A DNA stretch of 64,000 bases from Nocardioides daphniae (GTDB taxonomy: Bacteria; Actinomycetota; Actinomycetes; Propionibacteriales; Nocardioidaceae). The stretch spans positions 1,116,001 through 1,180,000 of the forward strand of contig NZ_CP038462.1 in NCBI RefSeq assembly GCF_004777465.1. The letters are read 5' to 3'. This document shows positions 26,979 to 56,112 of the stretch, in pieces. The translations under genes and the position numbers were made by a program. Each line of letters begins with the position of its first letter. Within the stretch, counting starts at the first letter, position 1. The notes under the pieces were generated by a model. The model did no database searches, was not told the DNA's origin, and was given only the letters and a program-made list of their open reading frames with translations.

Positions 26979-27833
26979 ATGCGCAAGAGGGGCTGGGGTG
27001 CGATCGCGGGCTGTCTGCTGCTCGCTCTCCTCGGCCTCGCGGCGTTCGGTTGCCAGTCAAGTGACAGCACCGTCGGGAGTCGGAGCCACTGGTAGGCCGA
27101 GGACGGTTCCTGGATCGAGCGCGCGTTCGGTGACTCACCCCAGCAGCCGGCGCCGACGAAGACGCCGGCCGCTGCTCCACCCTCGGCCTCCAAGCCGCCC
27201 GAGCTCGACGACACCCTGCTCCAGGCTTACCTGAGGGCCCTGCCTGCCGCCGACAGGACGCTTTTCGACCACTACCGCGACGCCTCGCTGGGTCAGGGCA
27301 CGTGGATCGTGGCTGCTCCCATGACGGTCGAGGAGGCTCGTCTGCGGCTTCTCGGTCCAGATCCGCAGCCTGCGCGACGAAGTGACTTCACCAGCGGTCT
27401 CTCGTCGGCGTACGCCTTACTCCAGGTGGGGACCGGAGTGGTCGCGTGGGAGTGGTCCGGGTTCGCCGATCCTCCGCGACGGCTGCTCGTCGAGCTGTCC
27501 CGCAACGGGGCCACGAGCGCTGTGGTCACGGACAATGTGGAGGGCATGACGCGTTTCGGCTACGCCCGCGACGGCCAAGTCGTCTTCGACGCCAGTGAGT
27601 ACGCCTTCGTTGACAGCATCGAAGAGATCCCGGTCGAGGTCCGCGACCTTGCCCGCCTTGCCTGGGAAGATCTCGACGGCCCAAGCCGCGAGACCGCCGA
27701 CTGGGCGACCGTGGGGTTGGCCATGGCTGCGAAGGTCACGGGCGTACGCGTCGACTCGCAAGTGCAAGACGTCAAGGGCAAGAAGAACTGGTACGCCGTC
27801 CCCCTGCCGTGGGGCGCAGAGGAGGACCACTGA
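26979..27833 (+). CDS. Lipoprotein with DUF6461-like domain, interrupted by in-frame TAG
   Basis: The first 38 codons encode a lipoprotein signal (MRKRGWGAIAGCLLLALLG...AFGC with a lipobox cysteine), ending in TAG 27093-27095. The same frame stays open afterwards with a Pro/Ala linker and then a domain containing GTGVVAWEWSGF and MTRFGYARDGQVVFD, resembling DUF6461. The continuous frame on both sides suggests one gene with a nonsense change or base-call error. GTG 27309 is the start if only the distal part is translated. GATACT six bases before ATG 26979 suggests a leaderless transcript. Confidence 0.55.
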
Positions 27834-42142: not shown

Positions 42143-43668
42143 CCGACTGGACCCGCAAGACCGCCGACGAGCTGGCCCAGGCCCTCGCCGCCGGTGAGGT
42201 GACGAGCGTCGAGCTGACGCAGGCACACCTCGACCGCATCGCCGCCGTCGACGGCAACGCCGACGCCGGCATCCACGCCTTCCTCCACGTCGACGCCGAG
42301 GGCGCGCTCGCCCAGGCGAAGGCCTCCGACGAGCGCCGTGCCGCCGGCACCCCCGCCTCGTACCTCGACGGCGTGCCGATCGCGGTCAAGGACGTGCTCG
42401 CCACCGAGGGCGTCCCGACGACCGTGGCCTCCAAGATCCTCGAGGGCTGGATCCCGCCCTACGACGCGACCGTGGTGAAGAAGCTGAAGGAGGCGGGCCT
42501 CCCGATCCTCGGCAAGACCAACATGGACGAGTTCGCGATGGGCTCCTCCACCGAGCACTCCGCCTACGGCCCGACCCGCAACCCCTGGGACCAGACCCGC
42601 ATCCCGGGCGGCTCCGGTGGTGGCTCGGCGGCCGCGGTGGCCGCCTTCGAGGCGCCGCTCGCGCTCGGCACCGACACCGGCGGCTCGATCCGCCAGCCCG
42701 CGGCCGTGACCGGCTCGGTCGGCGTGAAGCCGACCTACGGCGGCGTCTCGCGCTACGGCCTCGTCGCGATGGCCAACTCGCTCGACCAGGTCGGCCCGGT
42801 CACCCGCACCGTGCTCGACTCGGCGCTGCTCCACGAGCTGATCGGCGGCCACGACCCGCTCGACTCGACCTCGATCGACGCGCCCGTGCCCGCTTTCGCG
42901 GACGCCGCCCGCCAGGGTGCCGCCGGTGACCTGAGCGGCCTCAAGGTCGGCGTCATCCGCGAGCTCCAGGGCGAGGGCTACCAGCCCGGCGTCCAGGCCC
43001 GCTTCGACGAGTCGCTCGACCTGCTGCGCGCCGCCGGCGCCGAGGTCGTCGAGGTGTCGTGCCCCAACTTCGTGCACGCGCTGGCGACCTACTACCTGGT
43101 GATGCCGTGCGAGGCGTCCTCCAACCTCGCCAAGTTCGACGCCATGCGCTACGGCCTGCGGGTCACCCCCGACGGCGACCCGAGCGCCGAGGACGTCATG
43201 CGCGCCTCGCGTGACGCGGGCTTCGGAGACGAGGTCAAGCGCCGCATCATCATCGGCACGTACGCCCTCTCGAGCGGCTACTACGACGCCTACTACGGCC
43301 AGGCGCAGAAGGTCCGCACGCTGATCACCCAGGACTTCGAGGCCGCCTTCGCGCAGGTCGACGTCCTGGTCAGCCCCACCTCGCCGACCACCGCCTTCAA
43401 GCTGGGCGAGAAGCTCGACGACCCGATCGCGATGTACCTCAACGACCTCGCGACCATCCCGGCCAACCTGGCCGGCGTGCCCGGCATCAGCCTGCCCAAC
43501 GGCCTGGCCGACGAGGACGACCTGCCGTCGGGCTTCCAGATCCTGGCGCCGGCGACCGAGGACGTCCGGCTCTACCGCGTCGGCGCCGCCCTCGAGGCCG
43601 CGCTGGAGAAGAACTGGGGCGGTCCGTTGCTCGACCGCGCCCCCGAGCTGGAAGGGGTCAGCGCATGA
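42139..43668 (+). CDS. gatA: Asp/Glu-tRNA amidotransferase subunit A (amidase)
   Basis: 509-aa amidase-signature subunit that hydrolyses glutamine and passes ammonia to GatB. Catalytic triad: lysine in [11 protein letters not shown] (about residue 79), serines in [12 protein letters not shown] and [15 protein letters not shown] start overlapping gatC, and a 4-base ATGA overlap with gatB, give a coupled gatCAB operon. Confidence 0.96.
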
Positions 43669-45182
43669 GCGCCGCGACCGCCAAGCTGAAGACCTTCGAC
43701 GAGGCACTCGCCGCGTTCGACCCGGCGCTGGGCCTCGAGGTCCACGTCGAGCTCAGCACGAACACCAAGATGTTCTGCGGCTGCCCGACCGAGTTCGGCG
43801 CCGAGCCCAACACGCAGGTCTGCCCGACCTGCCTGGGCCTGCCCGGCGCCATGCCGGTCGTCAACGGCAAGGCCGTCGAGGCCGCCATCCGCATCGGCCT
43901 GGCGCTCAACTGCGAGATCGCCGAGTGGTGCCGCTTCGCCCGGAAGAACTACTTCTACCCGGACATGCCGAAGAACTTCCAGACCTCGCAGTACGACGAG
44001 CCGATCGCCTTCGAGGGCTACATGGACGTCACCATCGAGGGTGACGACGGCGAGCCCGAGATCTTCCGCGTGGAGATCGAGCGCGCCCACATGGAGGAGG
44101 ACACCGGCAAGTCGCTGCACGTCGGTGGCGCCACCGGCCGCATCCACGGGGCCGACTACTCGCTCGTCGACTACAACCGTGCCGGCATCCCGCTCATCGA
44201 GATCGTCACCAAGCCGATCACCGGCGCCGGGGCCAAGGCACCTGCCGTCGCCCGGGCGTACGTCGCCCAGCTGCGCGACCTGATCGTCGCCCTCGGCGTC
44301 TCCGACGCCCGCATGGACCAGGGCTCGATCCGCGCCGACGTCAACCTCTCGCTCGCCCCCAAGGGCGCCGAGAAGCTCGGCACCCGCACCGAGACGAAGA
44401 ACGTCAACTCGCTGCGCTCGGTCGAGCGGGCGGTGCGCTACGAGATCCAGCGCCACGCGGCGATCCTCACCGACGGCGGCTCGATCCTCCAGGAGACCCG
44501 CCACTGGCACGAGGACACCGGCGTCACCACGTCGGGTCGCGAGAAGTCCGACGCCGAGGACTACCGCTACTTCCCCGAGCCCGACCTGGTGCCCGTCGCC
44601 CCGTCGCGCGAGTGGGTCGAGGAGCTGCGCGGCACCCTGCCGGAGAACCCGACCGTCAAGCGGGCCCGCCTGCAGGCCGACTGGGGCTTCACCGACCTGG
44701 AGATGCGCGACACCATCGGTGCCGGCGCCTTCGGCCTCGTCGAGCAGACGGTCGCCGAGGGGTGCGCCCCGCAGGCCGCCCGCAAGTGGTGGCTCGGCGA
44801 GATGGCCCGTCGCTCCAACGAGAGCGGCGTCGAGATCAGCGAGCTGGGCATCACTCCCGCGCAGGTGGCGAAGATCCAGGCGCTCGTCGACGCGAAGACG
44901 ATCAACGACAAGCTGGCTCGCCAGGTCATCGAGGGCGTCCTCGCGGGCGAGGGCTCGCCCGAGGAGGTCGTCGAGAAGCGCGGCCTGGCCGTGGTCTCCG
45001 ACGACGGCGCCCTCTCGGCTGCCGTCGACAAGGCGATCGAGGCCAACCCCGACGTGGCCGACAAGATCCGTGACGGCAAGGTCGCTGCGGCCGGTGCCCT
45101 CATCGGTGCGGTGATGAAGGAGATGCGCGGGCAGGCCGACGCCGGCCGCGTGCGCGAGCTGATCATCGAGAAGCTGTCCTGA
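43665..45182 (+). CDS. gatB: Asp/Glu-tRNA amidotransferase subunit B
   Basis: 505-aa kinase/transamidase subunit. Signature [17 protein letters not shown] and [15 protein letters not shown] near the N-terminus (the Cys pairs bind zinc in many members), and [16 protein letters not shown]. The C-terminal helical and YqeY-like tail binds tRNA. Full length; the next gene is 354 bases downstream. Confidence 0.96.
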
Positions 45183-45274: not shown

Positions 45275-45329
45275 CTCGTTGGGGGGGACGACAAGTCGGC
45301 GGCGGACCCGATCGGGGGTACAGTGCTGC

Positions 45330-45455
45330 CTTCGTGGCGACCGCCGCGACACCTGCACGCCCGTCACGGGGAAAGCCGGTCCAAGTCCGGCGCTGACCCG
45401 CAACCGTGGGCACGGAGAGATCCGTGCGAGCCGGAACGCCTGTGACGACGCGTCC
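45330..45455 (+). promoter_or_regulatory. Cobalamin riboswitch aptamer
   Basis: The conserved B12-box region is clear: GGGGAAAGCCGGTCCAAGTC, then CGGCGCTGACCCGCAACCGTG (45389 on) and GAGCCGGAACGCCTG at 45428-45442, with the ACACCTGCACGCC 5' arm. A -10 hexamer TACAGT at 45319-45324 would start the RNA just before it. The whole leader lies ahead of the ECF uptake operon at 45537-51673, so cobalamin would repress it. Confidence 0.9.
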
Positions 45456-45481
45456 GAACAACACACGCTGTCGTGGAAAGC

Positions 45482-45530
45482 AGCGGGTTCGACTCCATGA
45501 CGGAGTGTTCCCGCTGGTGCAGCGGGAAGG
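45482..45530 (+). promoter_or_regulatory. Riboswitch expression platform with competing hairpins
   Basis: AGCGGG (45482-45487) can pair with CCCGCT (45510-45515), extended by ACTCC/GGAGT. The same CCCGCT can instead pair with AGCGGG at 45521-45526, which overlaps the Shine-Dalgarno sequence GGGAAGG of the next gene. The two folds exclude each other and would switch translation on or off. Confidence 0.55.
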
Positions 45531-45536
45531 ACTGAC

Positions 45537-47144
45537 ATGCTTCGCAGCACGCGCACCCGCGCCGCGTTCGTCGCGGCCACCGCCCTCGTCGTCACCGGCC
45601 TGGGGCAGGTGCCGGCCCAGGCGGCCACCGACTCCTCCCCGGCGCAGCTCGCCGGGACGTGGATGACGGGCAACCTCAACGGTGACGGACTGCTCACCGG
45701 GGCGTACGCCGACGACAAGGGTGAGACCCAGACGTTCACCGACTACGGCAGCAGCGTCGACCTCGCGCTCTCCCTGGACGCCGTGGGGGGCGACGCCGCG
45801 ACCGTCACCCGCATCACCGACGCGATCGCAGCGCAGGTCGGCGACTACACCGCGCCCTGGGGCGACGTGTACGCCGGCTCCTCGGCCAAGGCGATGACCC
45901 TTGCGGTCAGCCAGGGACGCGACCCGCGCACCTTCGGAGGCCGCGACCTGCAGGCCCAGGTCGAGGGCAGGGTCATCACCACGGGTGCCTCCACGGGGCG
46001 CATCGAGGACCTCTCCGCCTGGGGCGACTACGCCAACAGCATCGGCCAGGCGTTCGCCGCCCGTGCGCTGACCGCCGCCGGATCGAGCCTGGCCGACGAG
46101 GCGACCGACTACCTGCTGCTCCAGCAGTGCGACGCGGGCTTCTTCCGCCTCGACTTCACCAAGGACAAGGCCGCGGCCGACCAGACCTGCGACGGCGCCT
46201 CCGGCGCGGTCGACGCCGACGGCCCGGACGTGACCGCGCTGGTCGCCCTGCAGCTGGCGGCCATCGAGTCGCCCGACGCCGACGTGACCGCTGCGCTCGC
46301 CGACGCGAAGACCTGGCTGGCCGCCCAGCAGGCGGCCGACGGTGGCTTCGGCAGCACTGACAACGGAGCCAACGCCAACAGCACCGGCCTGGGCGGTTGG
46401 GCGCTCGCCGAGCTCGGTGACACCGCTCGGGCGACGAAGGCCGCGACCTGGCTGCGCGCCCGTCAGGTCGTCGGGGCCTGCGACGGCAAGCTGGCCCCCG
46501 AGACCGGCGCCATCGCCTACAGCGACGAGGCGCTCGCCGCCGGCCGCAAGGACGGCATCGCCGACCCGCTCGACCGCGTGCAGTGGATCATTGCCGGCGC
46601 CCAGGGCCTGGCAGGTCTCGCCTCGGCGCCCGCCACCAGCGCCAAGGACAAGGTCACCGCGCCCCGGTTCGCCAAGGCGGGCTCGAAGGTCACCTTCACC
46701 GTCACCGGCCTCGCCGCCGGTGAGCGCGGTTGCCTCAGCGGTGCCGTCGGCACCCGCACCCTCGTCGGCACCGGCTCGGCCCTCAAGGCTGTCGCCACCC
46801 TCAAGGCGGGCACCCGCAGCGTGACGCTGCGTACGGCGACCGCCACCGGCACCAGCAGCGTCACCGGCACGGTCACCGTGCTCGGCAAGAAGAAGCTCAA
46901 GGTGAGCCTCGCCAAGAAGCAGGTCAAGCGCAACGCCAAGGTCAAGGTCACCGTCAAGGGCCTGGCCCGCGGCGAGAGGGTGACCGTCAAGGTCCGCGGC
47001 AAGAAGGTCGCCACCGGCACCGCCAACGCCAAGGGCGTCCTGGTCCGCACCGTCAAGGTCGGCAAGGCCCGGGGCGTTGCGAGGGTGGCCGTCCAGGGGC
47101 AGTACGCCACGCGTACGGGCACCGCGAAGATCCGGGTGCGATGA
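45537..47144 (+). CDS. Secreted alpha/alpha-barrel repeat protein of the cobalamin operon
   Basis: 535 aa. Signal peptide of about 29 residues ending PAQA. Residues 40-370 hold prenyltransferase/squalene-oxidase-type repeats (WLAAQQAADGGFG, ANSTGLGGWALAELG, ATDYLLLQQCDAGFF), the alpha6/alpha6-barrel fold also used by the N-terminal domain of animal transcobalamin and intrinsic factor. The C-terminus is Ig-like and Lys-rich. First gene after the B12 riboswitch, with a GGAAGGA site. It likely captures cobalamin outside the membrane; this is inferred from fold and context, not shown by binding residues. Confidence 0.75.
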   Translation: MLRSTRTRAAFVAATALVVTGLGQVPAQAATDSSPAQLAGTWMTGNLNGDGLLTGAYADDKGETQTFTDYGSSVDLALSLDAVGGDAATVTRITDAIAAQVGDYTAPWGDVYAGSSAKAMTLAVSQGRDPRTFGGRDLQAQVEGRVITTGASTGRIEDLSAWGDYANSIGQAFAARALTAAGSSLADEATDYLLLQQCDAGFFRLDFTKDKAAADQTCDGASGAVDADGPDVTALVALQLAAIESPDADVTAALADAKTWLAAQQAADGGFGSTDNGANANSTGLGGWALAELGDTARATKAATWLRARQVVGACDGKLAPETGAIAYSDEALAAGRKDGIADPLDRVQWIIAGAQGLAGLASAPATSAKDKVTAPRFAKAGSKVTFTVTGLAAGERGCLSGAVGTRTLVGTGSALKAVATLKAGTRSVTLRTATATGTSSVTGTVTVLGKKKLKVSLAKKQVKRNAKVKVTVKGLARGERVTVKVRGKKVATGTANAKGVLVRTVKVGKARGVARVAVQGQYATRTGTAKIRVR

Positions 47145-48024
47145 GCCCGACCTCCCCCCGGAGGCGTCTCGCCGGGTCCGTCGCCGCACTCCTCGTGGGT
47201 GCGGCGGCGGGCGTCGGCCTGCTGGCCCCCGCACCCGCCCACGCGGCGGCGTGCAGCGGCGCCTCGGGCGTCACCGTGGTCGTCGACTTCGCCGAGCTCG
47301 GGGAGGGGGTGACCGCCGGGTGCGCACCCGACGGCGGGCGCGCCCGGGGGCTGTTCACCGCCGCGGGCTACACGCTGACCACTGCCACCAAGGCGCCCAG
47401 CTTCGTCTGCCGGGTCAACGGCCTGCCCGCCTCCGACCCGTGCGTCGACGCCGCACCGCCGGACGCGTACTGGAGCCTGTGGTGGGCCGACGGCAAGGGC
47501 GGCTCGTGGGTCTACGCCTCGCTGGGCGTCGACGCCCTCAAGATCCCCGACGGCGCCTACCTCGCCTTCTCATGGCACCAGGGCAGCGGCAAGGCCCAGC
47601 CGCCCTCCACCGTGCCGGTCTCGCGCACCGAGCCAACGAAGAAGCCGGCCCCCAGCCGGAAGCCCGCGCCGAAGCCGGCCCCGACGAAGAAGGGCGGCGG
47701 CAGCACGTCCGGCCCCGCCCCGACCGCAGCGCCGACGAACGTCCCGGGAGCCCCGGACGCCACTGCCTCCGGCACGCCGACCGCCTCGGCCTCCGCGTCA
47801 CCCACCAACAGCGCCTCGCCGAGCGCCGACGAGCCGACCCCGGGGAGACCTTCTCGGTCGACCCCGACCTCCCAGCCGACCAGATCACGGCCGGCCCCGA
47901 GGACACCGTGACCGTCGCCGACGACGACGTCACGGGTCTGCCCGGCTGGGTCGCGCCCGTGGTCGTGCTGGTCCTCCTGGGCGCCGGCGTCGCCGTCGTC
48001 CTCGTCCGTCGACGGCAGGTCTGA
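47141..48024 (+). CDS. Membrane-anchored DUF4430-like (transcobalamin beta-domain-like) protein, frameshifted
   Basis: About 294 aa. Signal peptide, then a 120-residue domain with four cysteines and the signature AYWSLWWADG ... WVYASLGVDALKIPDG, similar to DUF4430, the beta domain that closes over cobalamin in transcobalamin/intrinsic factor. A long Pro/Thr/Ser/Lys-rich stalk and a single C-terminal membrane helix (VAPVVVLVLLGAGVAVVLV) followed by RRRQV anchor it. The stalk and helix join at GGGG 47842-47845, where one G is missing. ATG overlaps the previous stop. Confidence 0.7.
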
Positions 48025-48032
48025 GCGCGGTC

Positions 48033-49219
48033 ATGACCGTCGTCGCCGACGCCACAGCACACGCCCGGGGCCATGCCCCCGCCCGCCGGGTGCGGTTCCC
48101 CCGTGAGCTGCACCCGGTGGCGTGGTGGATGTGGGCGGCCGGCGTCGCGGCGGCGGCCTCCAGCACCACCAACCCGTTGCTGCTGGCGCTGCTCATCGCG
48201 GTGACCTGGCTGGTCGTGGTGAGCTGCCGTGGTGACGGCACGTGGGCCCGCTCGTTCAAGCTCTACCTGTGGCTCGCGGTGCTCACGGTCGTGATCCGGA
48301 TCTTCTTCCGCGTGCTGCTCGGCGGCACCGACCAGGGCCACGTCATGCTCCACCTGCCGACGATCCCGCTGCCGCACTGGGCGGCGGGCATCCAGCTGCT
48401 CGGGCCGGTGACGCGGGAGCAGGTGCTCGCCGGGCTGTACGACGGACTCCAGCTCGCCGCCATCCTGGTCGCCTTCGGTGCCGCCAACGCGCTCGCCAAC
48501 CCCAAGCGGCTGCTCAAGACCCTGCCGCCCGCGCTCTACGAGATCGGCAGCGCCCTCGTCGTCGCCGTCTCGGTGCTGCCGCAGCTCGTCGACAGCGCGC
48601 GCCGCGTCAAGCACGCGCAGGAGCTGCGCGGCGGCGTGGAGGGCCGGATCCGAGGGATGCGCCGCCTGCTCGTGCCGGTGCTCGAGGACGCCTTCGACCG
48701 CTCGCTCGGGCTGGCCGCCGGCATGGACGCCCGCGGCTACGGCCGCTCCGGCGACCTCGACCGGCGTACGCGCGTGGTCACCGGCACCCTGATGGTCGCC
48801 GCCCTCATCGGCACCTGCGTCGGTGTCTACGGCTTCCTCGACCGGACCACCCCCCGCTGGCTCGGACTCCCGATGCTGGCCGTGGGAGCGGCCTGCGCCG
48901 TGGCCGGCATGACGAGCGCGGGGCGTCGGGTCCGACGCACCCGCTACCGCCCCGACCGCTGGCAGGGCCCGGAGATCGCGATCGCCGCCAGCGGCGTCGT
49001 GGCCGCGACCGGCGTGTGGTGGGTCGCGACCTCGACCATGACCGTCGCCCACCCGGGCGTGACCGGGGTGCCCACGCTGACCCTGACGGCGCTGCTGGCA
49101 CCGTTGGTCGCACTGGTGCCGCTGCTCGCGGCGCCACCGCCCCTGACGGTGACCACCCGCCAGCCCGCCAGCACCCACACCCCACCGCCAGCCCCACCAG
49201 AGAGGAAGGACCGTCGTGA
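48033..49219 (+). CDS. ECF transporter transmembrane subunit EcfT (frameshift near 3' end)
   Basis: About 395 aa with hydrophobic helices in two groups. The EcfT coupling region shows LPPALYEIGSALVVAVSVLPQL, the Ala-Arg-Gly-type motif in DARGYGRSGDL, and AQELRGGVEGR. It anchors the ATPases to the S component. The frame from 48033 stays open past the next gene; a stop TGA at 49217-49219 in the neighbouring frame overlaps GTG 49216 (GTGA), so one missing base near the C-rich 49180-49190 stretch is likely. It lies eight bases after the preceding stop. Confidence 0.8.
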
Positions 49220-50833
49220 TCGCACTGCGTGGCATCGAGTTCGGCTACGACGACCAACCCGTCCTGGCCGGGGTCGACCTCGAGATCGAGGAGGGCGAGC
49301 TCGTCCTCCTCGCCGGCCCCACCGGGTCGGGCAAGTCGACGCTGCTCGGTGTCGTCACCGGGCTGGTGCCCACCTACTCCGGCGGCACGCTGCGCGGTGA
49401 CGTCACTTGGGACGGCGAGAGCATCCTCCACCTGCCGGCCCGGGAGCGTGCCGGACGGATCGGCTTCGTCGGCCAGAACCCGGCCGCCTGGTTCGTCACC
49501 GACACGGTGGAGGAGGAGCTGGCCTACGCCATGGAGCAGCTCGGCCTGCCGGCCGCCACCATGCGCCGCCGTGTCGAGGAGACCCTTGACCTGCTCGGCA
49601 TCGCCGACCTGCGCCACCGCGACCTGCGCACCCTGTCGGGCGGGCAGCAGCAGCGCGTCGCGATCGGCGCCGTGCTGACGATGCATCCGCGGCTGCTGGT
49701 GCTCGACGAGCCGACCTCGGCCCTCGACCCGACCGCTGCCGAGGACGTGCTCGCCACGCTCACCCGCCTGGTCCACGACCTCGGCGTCTCGGTGCTGCTG
49801 GCCGAGCACCGCATCGAGCGCGTCGTCCCCTTCGCCGACCGGATGGTCCTGGTGCGCGGCGACGGCACCGTCGAGGTCGACGTGCCGCAGGTGGTGCTCG
49901 AGCGCTCACCGATCGCGCCGCCGCTGGTCGACCTGGGCCGCTCGGTCGGCTGGAGCCCGCTGCCCCTCACCGTCCGCGAGGCGCGCCGGCGGGCTGCTGC
50001 GCTGCGTACGCCCCTCGCGGAGGCCCTCGAGGTGCCTGCGACCGCGCCCACCGACCAGCCCGCGCCCACGGCACGCCGTGCTCGAGGCCCGCGGGCTCTC
50101 CGTCGCGCACCGCACGACACCGGTGCTCGACGGCGTCGACCTGGCCCTGCACGCCGGCCACGTGACGGCGCTGATGGGACGCAACGGCGCCGGCAAGTCG
50201 ACCCTGCTGTGGACGCTGCAGGGACGGTTGGCCCGCGTCGGCGGGACGCTGCTCAACGCCGGGCGTGACCCGCACGCCGTGGCCCGCGACGAGCGTCGGA
50301 CACTGACCGGGATGGTGCCGCAGAGCGCCGCCGACCTGCTCTACCTGGAGAGCGTCTCCGAGGAGTGCGTGGCCGCCGACGCAGCCGCCGACGCCGAGCC
50401 CGGGACCTGTCGTGCGCTGCTCGACCGGCTCGTGCCCGGCCTGGACGACGAGAGCCACCCGCGCGACCTCTCCGAGGGGCAGAAGCTGGCGCTGGCGGTC
50501 GCCGTCGTGCTGACCACCCGCCCCGCCGTGCTGCTGCTCGACGAGCCGACCCGCGGCCTGGACTACCCGGGCAAGGCGGCGCTGTCGACGATCCTGCGTG
50601 AGCTGGCCGGCGAGGGCCACGCCGTGCTGGTGGCCACCCACGACGTCGAGTTCGTGGCGCTCACCTGCGACCGCGTCGTGGTGCTCGCCGAGGGTGAGGT
50701 CGTCTCCTCGGGCCCGACCCGCGAGGTGGTGGCTGAGTCGCCCTCCTTCGCGCCGCAGGTGACCAAGGTGCTGGGCCCGCCGTGGCTGAAGGTGGCCGAG
50801 GTCGAGAAGGCGTTGCAGGGGAGCCTGGCGTGA
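49216..50833 (+). CDS. Double ECF/ABC ATPase (EcfA-EcfA', frameshifted or two genes)
   Basis: Two complete ABC cassettes in tandem. First: Walker A GPTGSGKST, signature LSGGQQQ, Walker B LLVLDEPTSALD. Second: Walker A GRNGAGKST, signature DLSEGQK (degenerate), Walker B VLLLDEPTRGLD. They are joined by a short Pro/Ala linker but lie in different frames; removing one C near 50075 makes one protein of about 539 aa. Alternatively the second starts at GTG 50078 as a separate gene. Energises cobalamin uptake with EcfT and the S component. Confidence 0.82.
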
Positions 50834-51673
50834 GCACGACCTCGACCCGGGCGGGGGAGGCGCTGCACGTGCCCGACCCGCGGATGCGGATCGGGCCGCG
50901 CTCGGCGCTGGTGCTCGTGCTGGTCTCGGTGGTCGGCCTGATGATGCTGGGCTGGCCGCTGATCCTCGACGCCCCGGCCGACGGGGCCCGGGTCGACCCA
51001 CCTTTCCTCTTCGTGGCGCTGCTGCCGCTGCTGCTGGTGATGGTGCTGGCCGAGATGACCGAGGGCGGCATGGACGCCCGCACGCTGGCGCTCCTGGGGC
51101 TGCTCTCGGCGATCAACGGCGTGCTGCGCGGGCTCGGTGCCGGCGTCGCCGGGGTGGAGCTGATCTTCTTCCTGATGGTGCTGGCGGGGCGGGTCTTCGG
51201 GCCGGCCTTCGGCTTCGTCCTCGGCTGCACGTCGCTCTTCGTCTCGGCCCTCTTCACCGCCGGCATCGGGCCCTGGCCCCTTCCAGATGCTGGTGGCCGG
51301 CTGGGTCGGGATGGGCGCCGGCCTGCTGCCGCGCCGTCCGCGCGGTCGCGCCGAGGTGGCGATGCTGGTCGTCTACGGGGTGCTGGCGGCCTACGCCTAC
51401 GGCCTGCTGATGAACCTGTGGGGCTGGCCGCTGGCGCTGGGCATCGAGGTGCCCGGCTACGAGGCGACCGAGCTCTCCTTCGTCTCCGGGGCGCCGCTGC
51501 TGGAGAACCTCAAGCGCTTCGGCCTCTACACGCTGGTCACCTCGACGGGCGGCTGGGACACCGGCCGAGCCGTGACCAACGGGCTGATGATCGCGCTGGT
51601 CGGGCCCGCCGTGCTCAGCACGCTGCGCCGGGCCGCCCGCCGCGCCGTCGTGCAGCGGGTCCCGGCCTCCTGA
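50830..51673 (+). CDS. ECF transporter S component, predicted cobalamin-specific (frameshifted)
   Basis: About 281-aa membrane protein with six or seven helices: LVLVSVVGLMMLGWPLIL, FVALLPLLLVMVLAEM, then GPWPFQMLVAGWVGMGAGLLPRR, matching the GPW-PFQM-GWVG-G-G-L motif of large S components. The frame changes in CCCC near 51281 (one extra base). Start GTG overlaps the ATPase stop. Cobalamin specificity follows from the upstream riboswitch and operon, not from residues. Convergent with the next gene, 12 bases away. Confidence 0.75.
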
Positions 51674-51685
51674 CCGCGGGCCGGG

Positions 51686-52864
51686 TCACCGGCGTACGCG
51701 CAGGATCCGGTCGTCGTCGGGCGCCGGGTCGCCGCGCCCGTCGTGGTTGGAGGTGGTGACCCAGAGGCCGTCCTCGGCCGCGACGACGGTGCGCATCCGG
51801 CCGTACTCGCCGACGAAGTGGGCCGTGCTGTCGACCTCGTCGCCGTCGACCGTGACCTGCCACAGCCGCTGGCCGCGGAGTGCGCCGAGCCAGAACGAGC
51901 CGTCGGCCCAGGCCAGCCCGGAGGGGGAGGCCTCGTCGGTGCTCCAGACCGCCACCGGGTCGGTGAGCCCGCGGCCCTCCCCGCCCCGGGCCATCCCCTC
52001 GACCTGCGGCCAGCCGTAGTTGGCCCCGGCCTCGATCCGGTTGAGCTCGTCGAAGGAGTCGGCGCCGAACTCGCTGGCGTACAGCTGTCCCTGGTCGTCC
52101 CACGCCAGCCCCTGCACGTTGCGGTGGCCGATCGAGTAGACCGGGGAGCGGCCGAAGGGGTTGTCCGGGGCGGGGCGCCCCTCGGCGGTGATCCGCAGGA
52201 TCTTGCCGGCCAGCGACGTCTCGTCCTGCGCCAGCTCGGGCTCGCCGGCGTCGCCGGTGGAGACGTAGAGGTAGCCGTCGGGGCCGAAGGCGATCCGTCC
52301 GCCGTCGTGGTAGTCGGCCCGCGGGATCCCGGTGAGCACCGGCTTCCACGGGCCGAGCCGGTCCCCGTCGAAGGTGGCGGTGAGGACCCGGTTGTCCTCG
52401 CCGGTGGTGACGTAGACGAAGACCCGCTCCACGCCGGCCTCGGCCAGCGAGGCGATGCCCAGCAGGCCGCCCTCGACGCTGGGCCCCTGGCCGGGATCGG
52501 TGCGGACGACGCCGAGGTCGGTGGTCGACCACGACCGGTCCTTGCCCTGGCCCTCGTCCGGGGTCAGGTGCAGCACCTTCCACGAGTCGCGCTCGGTGAC
52601 CAGCGCGGAGCCGTCGGCGAGGAAGGTGACGCCCCACGGCACCCGCAGGCCCTCGGCGACCGCACCGCGTACGCGTGGCTCGCCGGCGCTGGTCGACCCG
52701 TCGGGGGAGGCAGTGGGCGAGGGAGTGGGGGAGGCCGACTCCTGGACGGTCGGCGTCTGCACGCCGTCGGGGCCGTCACCCTCCGTGTCGCCGCACGCGG
52801 CGAGGAGGGGCGCCACCAAGCCGACCGCGACCACCGCGGAGAGTCGGCGTCGGGAGCTGCGCAT
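51686..52864 (-). CDS. PQQ-dependent sugar dehydrogenase-like lipoprotein (GSDH family)
   Basis: 392 aa. Lipoprotein signal (VAPLLAAC), a Ser/Thr/Pro linker, then a six-bladed beta-propeller: LRVPWGVTFLADGSALVTER, VEGGLLGIASL, HDGGRIAFGPDGYLYVSTGD, SIGHRNVQGLAWD and GANYGWPQVEG, the hallmark of soluble glucose/sorbosone dehydrogenases. Catalytic His in HRNVQG. It oxidises sugars outside the cell if PQQ is supplied. GGAGGT lies five bases before the ATG. Confidence 0.88.
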   Translation of the reverse strand: MRSSRRRLSAVVAVGLVAPLLAACGDTEGDGPDGVQTPTVQESASPTPSPTASPDGSTSAGEPRVRGAVAEGLRVPWGVTFLADGSALVTERDSWKVLHLTPDEGQGKDRSWSTTDLGVVRTDPGQGPSVEGGLLGIASLAEAGVERVFVYVTTGEDNRVLTATFDGDRLGPWKPVLTGIPRADYHDGGRIAFGPDGYLYVSTGDAGEPELAQDETSLAGKILRITAEGRPAPDNPFGRSPVYSIGHRNVQGLAWDDQGQLYASEFGADSFDELNRIEAGANYGWPQVEGMARGGEGRGLTDPVAVWSTDEASPSGLAWADGSFWLGALRGQRLWQVTVDGDEVDSTAHFVGEYGRMRTVVAAEDGLWVTTSNHDGRGDPAPDDDRILRVRR

Positions 52865-55092: not shown

Positions 55093-56112
55093 GAAGAAGC
55101 TGGGATTCCTCAACTTCGGACACTGGTCCGACTCGCCCCACTCGCAGGTGCGCAGTGCTGCCGACACCTGCTCCAGTCGATCGACCTGGCGGTCGCGACC
55201 GAGGAGCTGGGTGGCGACGGCGCCTACTTCCGGGTGCACCACTTCGCCCGCCAGCTCGCCTCGCCCTTCCCGCTGCTCGCGGCGGTCGGGGCGAAGACCG
55301 AGCGGATCGAGATCGGCACGGGCGTCATCGACATGCGCTACGAGAACCCGATGTACATGGCCGAGGACGCAGGCGCCGCCGATCTGATCTCGGGCGGCAG
55401 GCTCCAGCTCGGCATCAGCCGGGGATCACCGGAGCAGGTCGTCGACGGCTGGCGCTACTTCGGCTACGCCCCTGCCGAGGGCGAGGACCACGCCGGGATG
55501 GCGCGCCGCCACACCGAGGTGCTCCTCGAGGTGCTCAAGGGGGAGGGGTTCGCCCAGCCCAACCCGCGACCGATGTTTCCCAACCCGCCGGGCCTGCTGC
55601 GGGTCGAGCCGCACTCGCCGGGCCTGCGCCAGCGGATCTGGTGGGGCGCCGCCTCGGAGGCGACCGTCCGGTGGACCGCCCGCATGGGGATGAACCTGAT
55701 GAGCTCCACCCTGGTCGCCGACGAGACCGGTGAGCCCTTCCACGTGCAGCAGCGCCGCCAGATCGAGGCGTTCCGCGAGGAGTGGGCGGCCGCCGGCCAC
55801 GACTGGGAGCCGCGGGTCTCGGTGAGCCGGTCGATCATGCCGATCACCACCGACCTCGACCGGGCGTACTTCGGCGGCGACGCGGAGAGCCGTGACCAGG
55901 TCGGCCAGATCGAGCCGCAGCTGCGTGCGGTCTTCGGGCGCTCGTACGCCGCGGAGCCCGACGTGCTCGTCGACCAGCTCGCCGGCGACGAGGCGCTGCA
56001 GCTCGCCGACACGGTGCTGCTGACGGTCCCCAACCAGCTGGGCGTCGACTACAACGCCCACCTGCTGGAGTCGCTGATCACCCAGGTGGCGCCCGGCCTC
56101 GGCTGGCGCTGA
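55091..56112 (+). CDS. LLM-class flavin-dependent monooxygenase (frameshifted)
   Basis: About 340 aa with a luciferase-like TIM barrel. [11 protein letters not shown] in the first strand, then in the second frame [39 protein letters not shown] and [16 protein letters not shown], the standard conserved strands. The frame breaks at ACCTG near 55167; one extra C gives [18 protein letters not shown]. Oxidises an unknown substrate with FMNH2 or F420. The palindrome over the start suggests tight repression. Confidence 0.82.

Follow-up and report, generated by a model that had tools for sequence, protein, structure and literature searches.

A riboswitch-led operon of Nocardioides daphniae and a possible two-chain, circularly permuted corrinoid receptor in Actinomycetia

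What does a bacterium import with a transporter whose genes follow a candidate cobalamin riboswitch and the genes of two proteins that may correspond to the halves of transcobalamin? An operon in Nocardioides daphniae raises this question. It lies in a stretch of 64,000 nucleotides (contig NZ_CP038462.1, positions 1,116,001 to 1,180,000; hereafter the window, numbered from its first base) of a single-contig genome of 3.56 Mb. On the forward strand, the leader is followed by P1, P2, EcfT, two EcfA open reading frames (ORFs) and an S component, the last three being parts of an energy-coupling factor (ECF) transporter. We conclude with good confidence that the operon serves the uptake of a corrinoid, most likely cobalamin. 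The case is carried by the family of the riboswitch (established by homology), the gene content, the fold of P2 and the co-occurrence of these elements. A fuller picture is finely balanced: a cobalamin-triggered, two-chain clamshell receptor of Actinomycetia, whose toroid and beta-grasp chains both differ by circular permutation between Nocardioidaceae-like genomes and the majority of other lineages, with no change in function, gene order or riboswitch.

The Rfam scan of the whole window gave no match at gathering level. RF00174 matched 45373-45418 with 23.1 bits, short of its 31.5-bit cut-off, and for this reason we call the leader divergent and assign it by homology. We derived a leader model, R1, from the window's own leader and those of 25 homologous loci. 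It places the aptamer at 45355-45461 with 111 bits, the window being one of its training rows, and two-sided compensatory changes occur at 15 of the 31 predicted pairs in the 26-leader alignment. At the same place, three of seven Nocardioides loci tested (L022, L025 and L043) pass the RF00174 cut-off. The model, the covariation and the homologous leaders bear out the B12-type riboswitch that an earlier note on this DNA had proposed: by homology the leader is a divergent cobalamin-type riboswitch, and no Rfam-scored member. Downstream lies a predicted expression platform (45480-45531), in which GCAGCGGG (45480-45487) and CAGCGGGAA (45520-45528) compete for TTCCCGCTG (45508-45516), and the ribosome binding site GGGAAGGA (45524-45531) is partly masked by the platform hairpin. 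The predicted fold has a z of -2.37, and the strict motif is found in 23 of 62 leaders (absent in 39) versus 5 of 1280 random stretches; we infer a switching mechanism from these features. A core-like motif at 27494 was dropped because it looks like coding sequence.

Leader and genes go together across genomes. Among 64 loci with a window-type P2 (from Nocardioides, Pimelobacter, one Aeromicrobium and one Actinomycetota record; L066 and L067 come from a single assembly and are nearly copies of each other), R1 matches upstream of P2 in 62, or in 37 of 39 when the 25 training loci are set aside. On the contigs of the two misses, L029 and L034, the P2 match is preceded by 121 and 802 bases. In other lineages, P2 is a member of the family NF040672 (SCO2322) and P1 of NF053823 (SCO2321). 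There we sampled 38 SCO2322-type loci, picked by protein and not by RNA. A search of 296 genomes of the class had given 102 that exceed the NF040672 cut-off, some of these 102 being about 1.3-1.5 Mb in size, and the sample was drawn from them. Twelve came from different families, followed by one each for 26 further genera; 37 represent other families within the class, the remaining one (L096) belongs to the window's genus, and contig-end matches in G020, G021 and G042 were excluded. R1 matches 34 of the 38, and 22 leaders (7/12, 13/20 and 2/6) pass cut-offs of the Rfam cobalamin clan (CL00101). Two of the misses, L131 and L137, sit on contigs that begin shortly upstream. Homologous operons without a B12 riboswitch, which the earlier note had named as grounds for giving up its proposal, are confined to a few loci; because operon and riboswitch go together, the proposal passes in nearly all. 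As a separate observation, L062 has a strong riboswitch between P1 and P2 (9694-9800) and a weaker one before P1 (8024-8121), and L065 has a strong one between P1 and P2 (9727-9834), so P1 is possibly regulated apart in these two loci.

The gene content is that of an importer. EcfT (48033-49400), a CbiQ-type transmembrane subunit, matches PF02361 at 33 bits (cut-off 25), and the 3' end of its ORF overlaps EcfA, which provides two ABC ATPase domains (49216-50833). The S component (50830-51673) is of the PF12822 type; it scores 23.8 bits in the window, below the cut-off of 30.7, whereas two intact relatives reach 36.1 and 36.9 bits. Judged by sequence, EcfT, the two ATPases and S are together an ECF transporter, as had been proposed, with S above the Pfam cut-off in the intact relatives only. 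The proposed riboswitch-led run of P1, P2, EcfT, EcfA and S genes likewise agrees with homology and gene content.

P2 (47141-48024), whose start at 47141 overlaps the P1 stop, consists of a signal peptide, a beta-type domain, a Pro-rich stalk and a C-terminal hydrophobic stretch (signal peptides and membrane helices of the operon proteins were assigned by eye); in 63 of 64 relatives the protein's end is an Arg-rich tail. The model of its domain (47246-47623) has strands at 9-14 and 22-27, a helix at 33-39, insert strands at 44-47 and 50-57, and strands at 74-81 and 105-112. The predicted model and its structure matches indicate a beta-grasp fold with a two-strand insert following the helix. 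Transcobalamin-type beta domains match this model by fold, at an identity of 10-18% over the aligned part, and the hydrophobic insert residue F53 is kept in at least 90% of 120 P2 rows. P2 is therefore, on predicted fold, a transcobalamin beta-type domain protein, which the earlier note had suspected. The Pfam accession PF28005 is precomputed for P2 proteins of both types (P0182, P0329, P0344 and P0350) and appears in none of the Pfam scans made here, though P0182 itself was scanned; a newer model may already unite the two types.

Profile comparisons show that the two types of P1 and of P2 have exchanged halves, that is, that they are related by circular permutation. The N-terminal half of window-type P2 matches the C-terminal half of SCO2322 at 68.4% (0.2% against the N-terminal half), and its C-terminal half matches the N-terminal half of SCO2322 at 92.7% (0.4% against the C-terminal half). 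Full P2 profiles score 38.3 (86.3%) in natural order versus 62.0 (97.0%, E 1.1e-10) with halves swapped and a 25-column linker removed; the maximum among 42 control pairs was 2.7%. For P1, the N-terminal stretch of the window type matches the last repeat of the other type at 97.9%, versus 5.0% for the remainder, and the full score is 140.9 over 169 columns in natural order and 205.6 over 269 when swapped (E 8.9e-29); the unrelated-family controls refer to P2. In P2, the window-type order is the transcobalamin order, according to the structure match. Scores with NF053823 are 581.9 bits in L085, and 195.1 in L091 and 264 in L139, both below the cut-off of 300. Within the window's family (f1, taken as Nocardioidaceae), the P2 types are mutually exclusive: 34 of 37 genomes carry the window type (E 2.7e-28 or better) and the remaining three (G166, G709 and G736) carry the SCO2322 type above cut-off, with riboswitch and ECF genes kept in the G166 locus, L096. 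Both types co-occur in G688 and G720 (f114) and in G731 (f2). In the first two, two window-type P2-like matches lie near each other in opposite orientation (G688:C18:118315-123410 and G720:C1:5290493-5295572), with the SCO2322-type P2 elsewhere in the genome.

Is P1 (45537-47144) the other half of a transcobalamin? This protein of 535 residues has, by eye, a signal peptide and an immunoglobulin-like C-terminal region. Its best solved relatives by sequence profile are squalene-hopene cyclase (E 1.1e-15, or 1.8e-35 with a broader alignment, through repeat-level matches) and complement thioester domains. These proteins and the transcobalamin alpha domain are all alpha/alpha toroids. Passages of PMC1796856 state this fold for transcobalamin. 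From its profile matches, P1 is an alpha/alpha toroid, and its fold class makes a role as the alpha half of transcobalamin plausible, though not proven. A serious possibility, short of an even chance, is that P1 serves wall anchoring or spacing, or is an unrelated toroid, and is no corrinoid lid, with P2 the sole receptor. Its cyclase and complement relatives suit this alternative, and so does its absence from many loci: of the 33 SCO2322-type loci in which tblastn located EcfT, 13 have riboswitch and EcfT no more than 1014 nt apart, too little to fit P1. On the other side, a P1-like ORF precedes EcfT in 18 of the 33, following an R1 match in 16 and lacking one in two (L131 and L137), and toroid-SLBB fusions in bacteria are reported in passages of PMC1796856. 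The last two loci, L130 and L145, are ambiguous, and L095 has a P1-like ORF with no EcfT match in the stretch read. The supposition that P1 is a necessary part of the module had to be given up: because many loci leave no room for it, P1 is optional and the core is P2, EcfT, EcfA-EcfA and S. Some P1 relatives have names or ends of LPXTG wall anchors. Separately, a second P1-like match lies upstream of the P2-adjacent one in 23 of the 64 window-type loci (L038, L039, L041, L043, L045-L047, L049-L051, L055, L057-L061, L066, L067, L069, L071, L075, L076 and L080), and circular permutation could have started from tandem copies of this sort. Apparent P1-P2 fusions in P0329, P0344 and P0350, with parts of both in one frame, were not counted because their junctions resemble read-through of frame errors.

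Several results weigh against the uptake reading. Pfam DUF4430 matches none of 120 P2 members at E <= 0.1, so that the earlier label "DUF4430-like" holds for the fold and fails for the profile, although UniRef labels one relative, P0151, a DUF4430 protein. In hhalign, a profile of 18 DUF4430 proteins gave 0.7% with the window-type P2 profile, not significant. With the SCO2322 profile it gave 80.2% in natural order, 83.0% with halves swapped (77 versus 46 columns) and 86.2% with the C-terminal half of SCO2322 alone; on order, this comparison therefore says little. The 18-protein profile itself found no transcobalamin among the PDB matches listed. Nor did P1 find a transcobalamin chain at E <= 10 among 50 matches listed, or its broad profile among the best 60 of 65; the toroid part of the earlier proposal stands, and the specific transcobalamin link stays tentative. 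A sequence search with the S component gives no PDB chain at E <= 10. In two SCO2322-type loci, L147 and L148, P2 is present, but the 4.6 kb read contain neither riboswitch nor EcfT. Key B12 enzymes are usually missing from bacteria with such systems, according to passages of PMC1796856, and the window's genome has CbiC, so the organism probably makes its own B12. Finally, the window copy has three frame breaks. P2 is broken near 47840, with its hydrophobic C-terminus in another frame (47845-48021); the EcfA halves are ORFs in different frames (49216-50268 and 50078-50833), versus a single ORF in 62 of 62 relatives; and S is broken near 51276-51281 and is one ORF in 60 of 61 relatives (the exception is L042). 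Taken with CbiC, these breaks could mark a decaying remnant in a strain that probably makes its own B12. We consider this unlikely, as the P1 frame is open, the relatives are mostly intact, and a gene outside the operon is similarly broken near 55170 relative to L021, which favours assembly indels without proving them.

An importer of cobalt ions or of a B12 precursor bound by the surface proteins, with a riboswitch that only reports B12 status, would fit the CbiQ family of EcfT and the position of the genome's only other R1 match at E <= 0.001 (L151, G000:C1:1942115-1942213) before genes resembling CbtB/CbtA, by eye a cobalt transporter, but it is quite improbable given the PF12822-like substrate subunit, the resemblance of P2 to cobalamin carriers and the lack of CbiM and CbiN in the Pfam scan of operon proteins. 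A precursor such as cobinamide could still be the substrate.

For corrinoid uptake we propose the following scheme. At low intracellular cobalamin the riboswitch would permit translation of P1, and at high cobalamin the hairpin would conceal the ribosome binding site. P2, tethered to the membrane by its Pro-rich stalk, would catch the corrinoid with its beta domain; the secreted toroid P1, where present, may close over it as the transcobalamin alpha domain does; and P2 would pass it to the S component of the dedicated ECF transporter for ATP-driven import. The general scheme without closure by P1 is highly likely, and closure of P1 over P2 could equally prove right or wrong.

The operon lies between GatB (43665-45182) upstream and a convergent glucose/sorbosone dehydrogenase-like gene (51686-52864) downstream, and the closest named protein relatives are from Nocardioides. 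Across the phylum as a whole, 76 of 396 genomes contain a PF14478 match, and three of the seven such regions read have a cobalamin-clan riboswitch. One of them (L119) repeats the order of the operon and runs from an AdoCbl-II riboswitch through a DUF4430 surface protein of 1537 residues and a DUF4430 protein of 246 to a 308-residue ORF at the EcfT place, a double ATPase and a 229-residue ORF at the S place, with EcfT and S assigned from order and length. Proteins of L121 and L123 match the P1 profile (E 6.1e-8 and 3.6e-8). Pfam finds DUF4430 in four of five large surface proteins outside the class, along with propeller-like families, and a toroid family weakly in one (SQHop N-terminal, E 0.0099).

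How does this system compare with known ones? The closest families, NF053823 (SCO2321) and NF040672 (SCO2322), are homologous to P1 and P2 and lie in corresponding operons, but their names state no function and their domain order is circularly permuted. If our reading is true, it gives these two function-less families a testable function. It would also provide a natural split transcobalamin, in which ligand-induced closure of two chains is open to direct study; a pair of circular permutations within a single operon is uncommon in protein evolution. The earlier note, which named no characterised two-protein receptor of this kind, needs a correction on precedent: in 2007, Burroughs and co-workers predicted B12 scavenging by bacterial transcobalamin-like SLBB proteins, often toroid-fused, encoded beside CbiO and CbiQ (passages of PMC1796856). 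Those systems share the secreted beta-grasp with hairpin insert, the toroid partner and the CbiO/CbiQ genes. As those passages describe them, they join toroid and SLBB in one chain and belong to low-GC Gram-positives, planctomycetes and some euryarchaea, whereas here there are two chains of permuted types in riboswitch-led actinobacterial operons; the word riboswitch is absent from the 2007 account (PMC1796856). What we claim as new is the actinobacterial branch of P1 and P2, their division into two chains, the tie to a riboswitch and the permutation; a literature search, with most subscription journals outside its reach, found no account of this system. ECF-CbrT of Lactobacillus delbrueckii imports B12 by an ECF-type mechanism, as proposed here, and shares its ECF module with another S component (passages of PMC5997447); no kinship of our S component to CbrT was detected, as no PDB chain was found at E <= 10. 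The animal carriers transcobalamin, haptocorrin and intrinsic factor have the same beta-domain fold as P2. They are single polypeptides taken up by endocytosis with no transporter gene, unlike the present operon with its ECF transporter genes, and the domains of human transcobalamin, when expressed apart, assemble on cobalamin (passages of PMC5599065).
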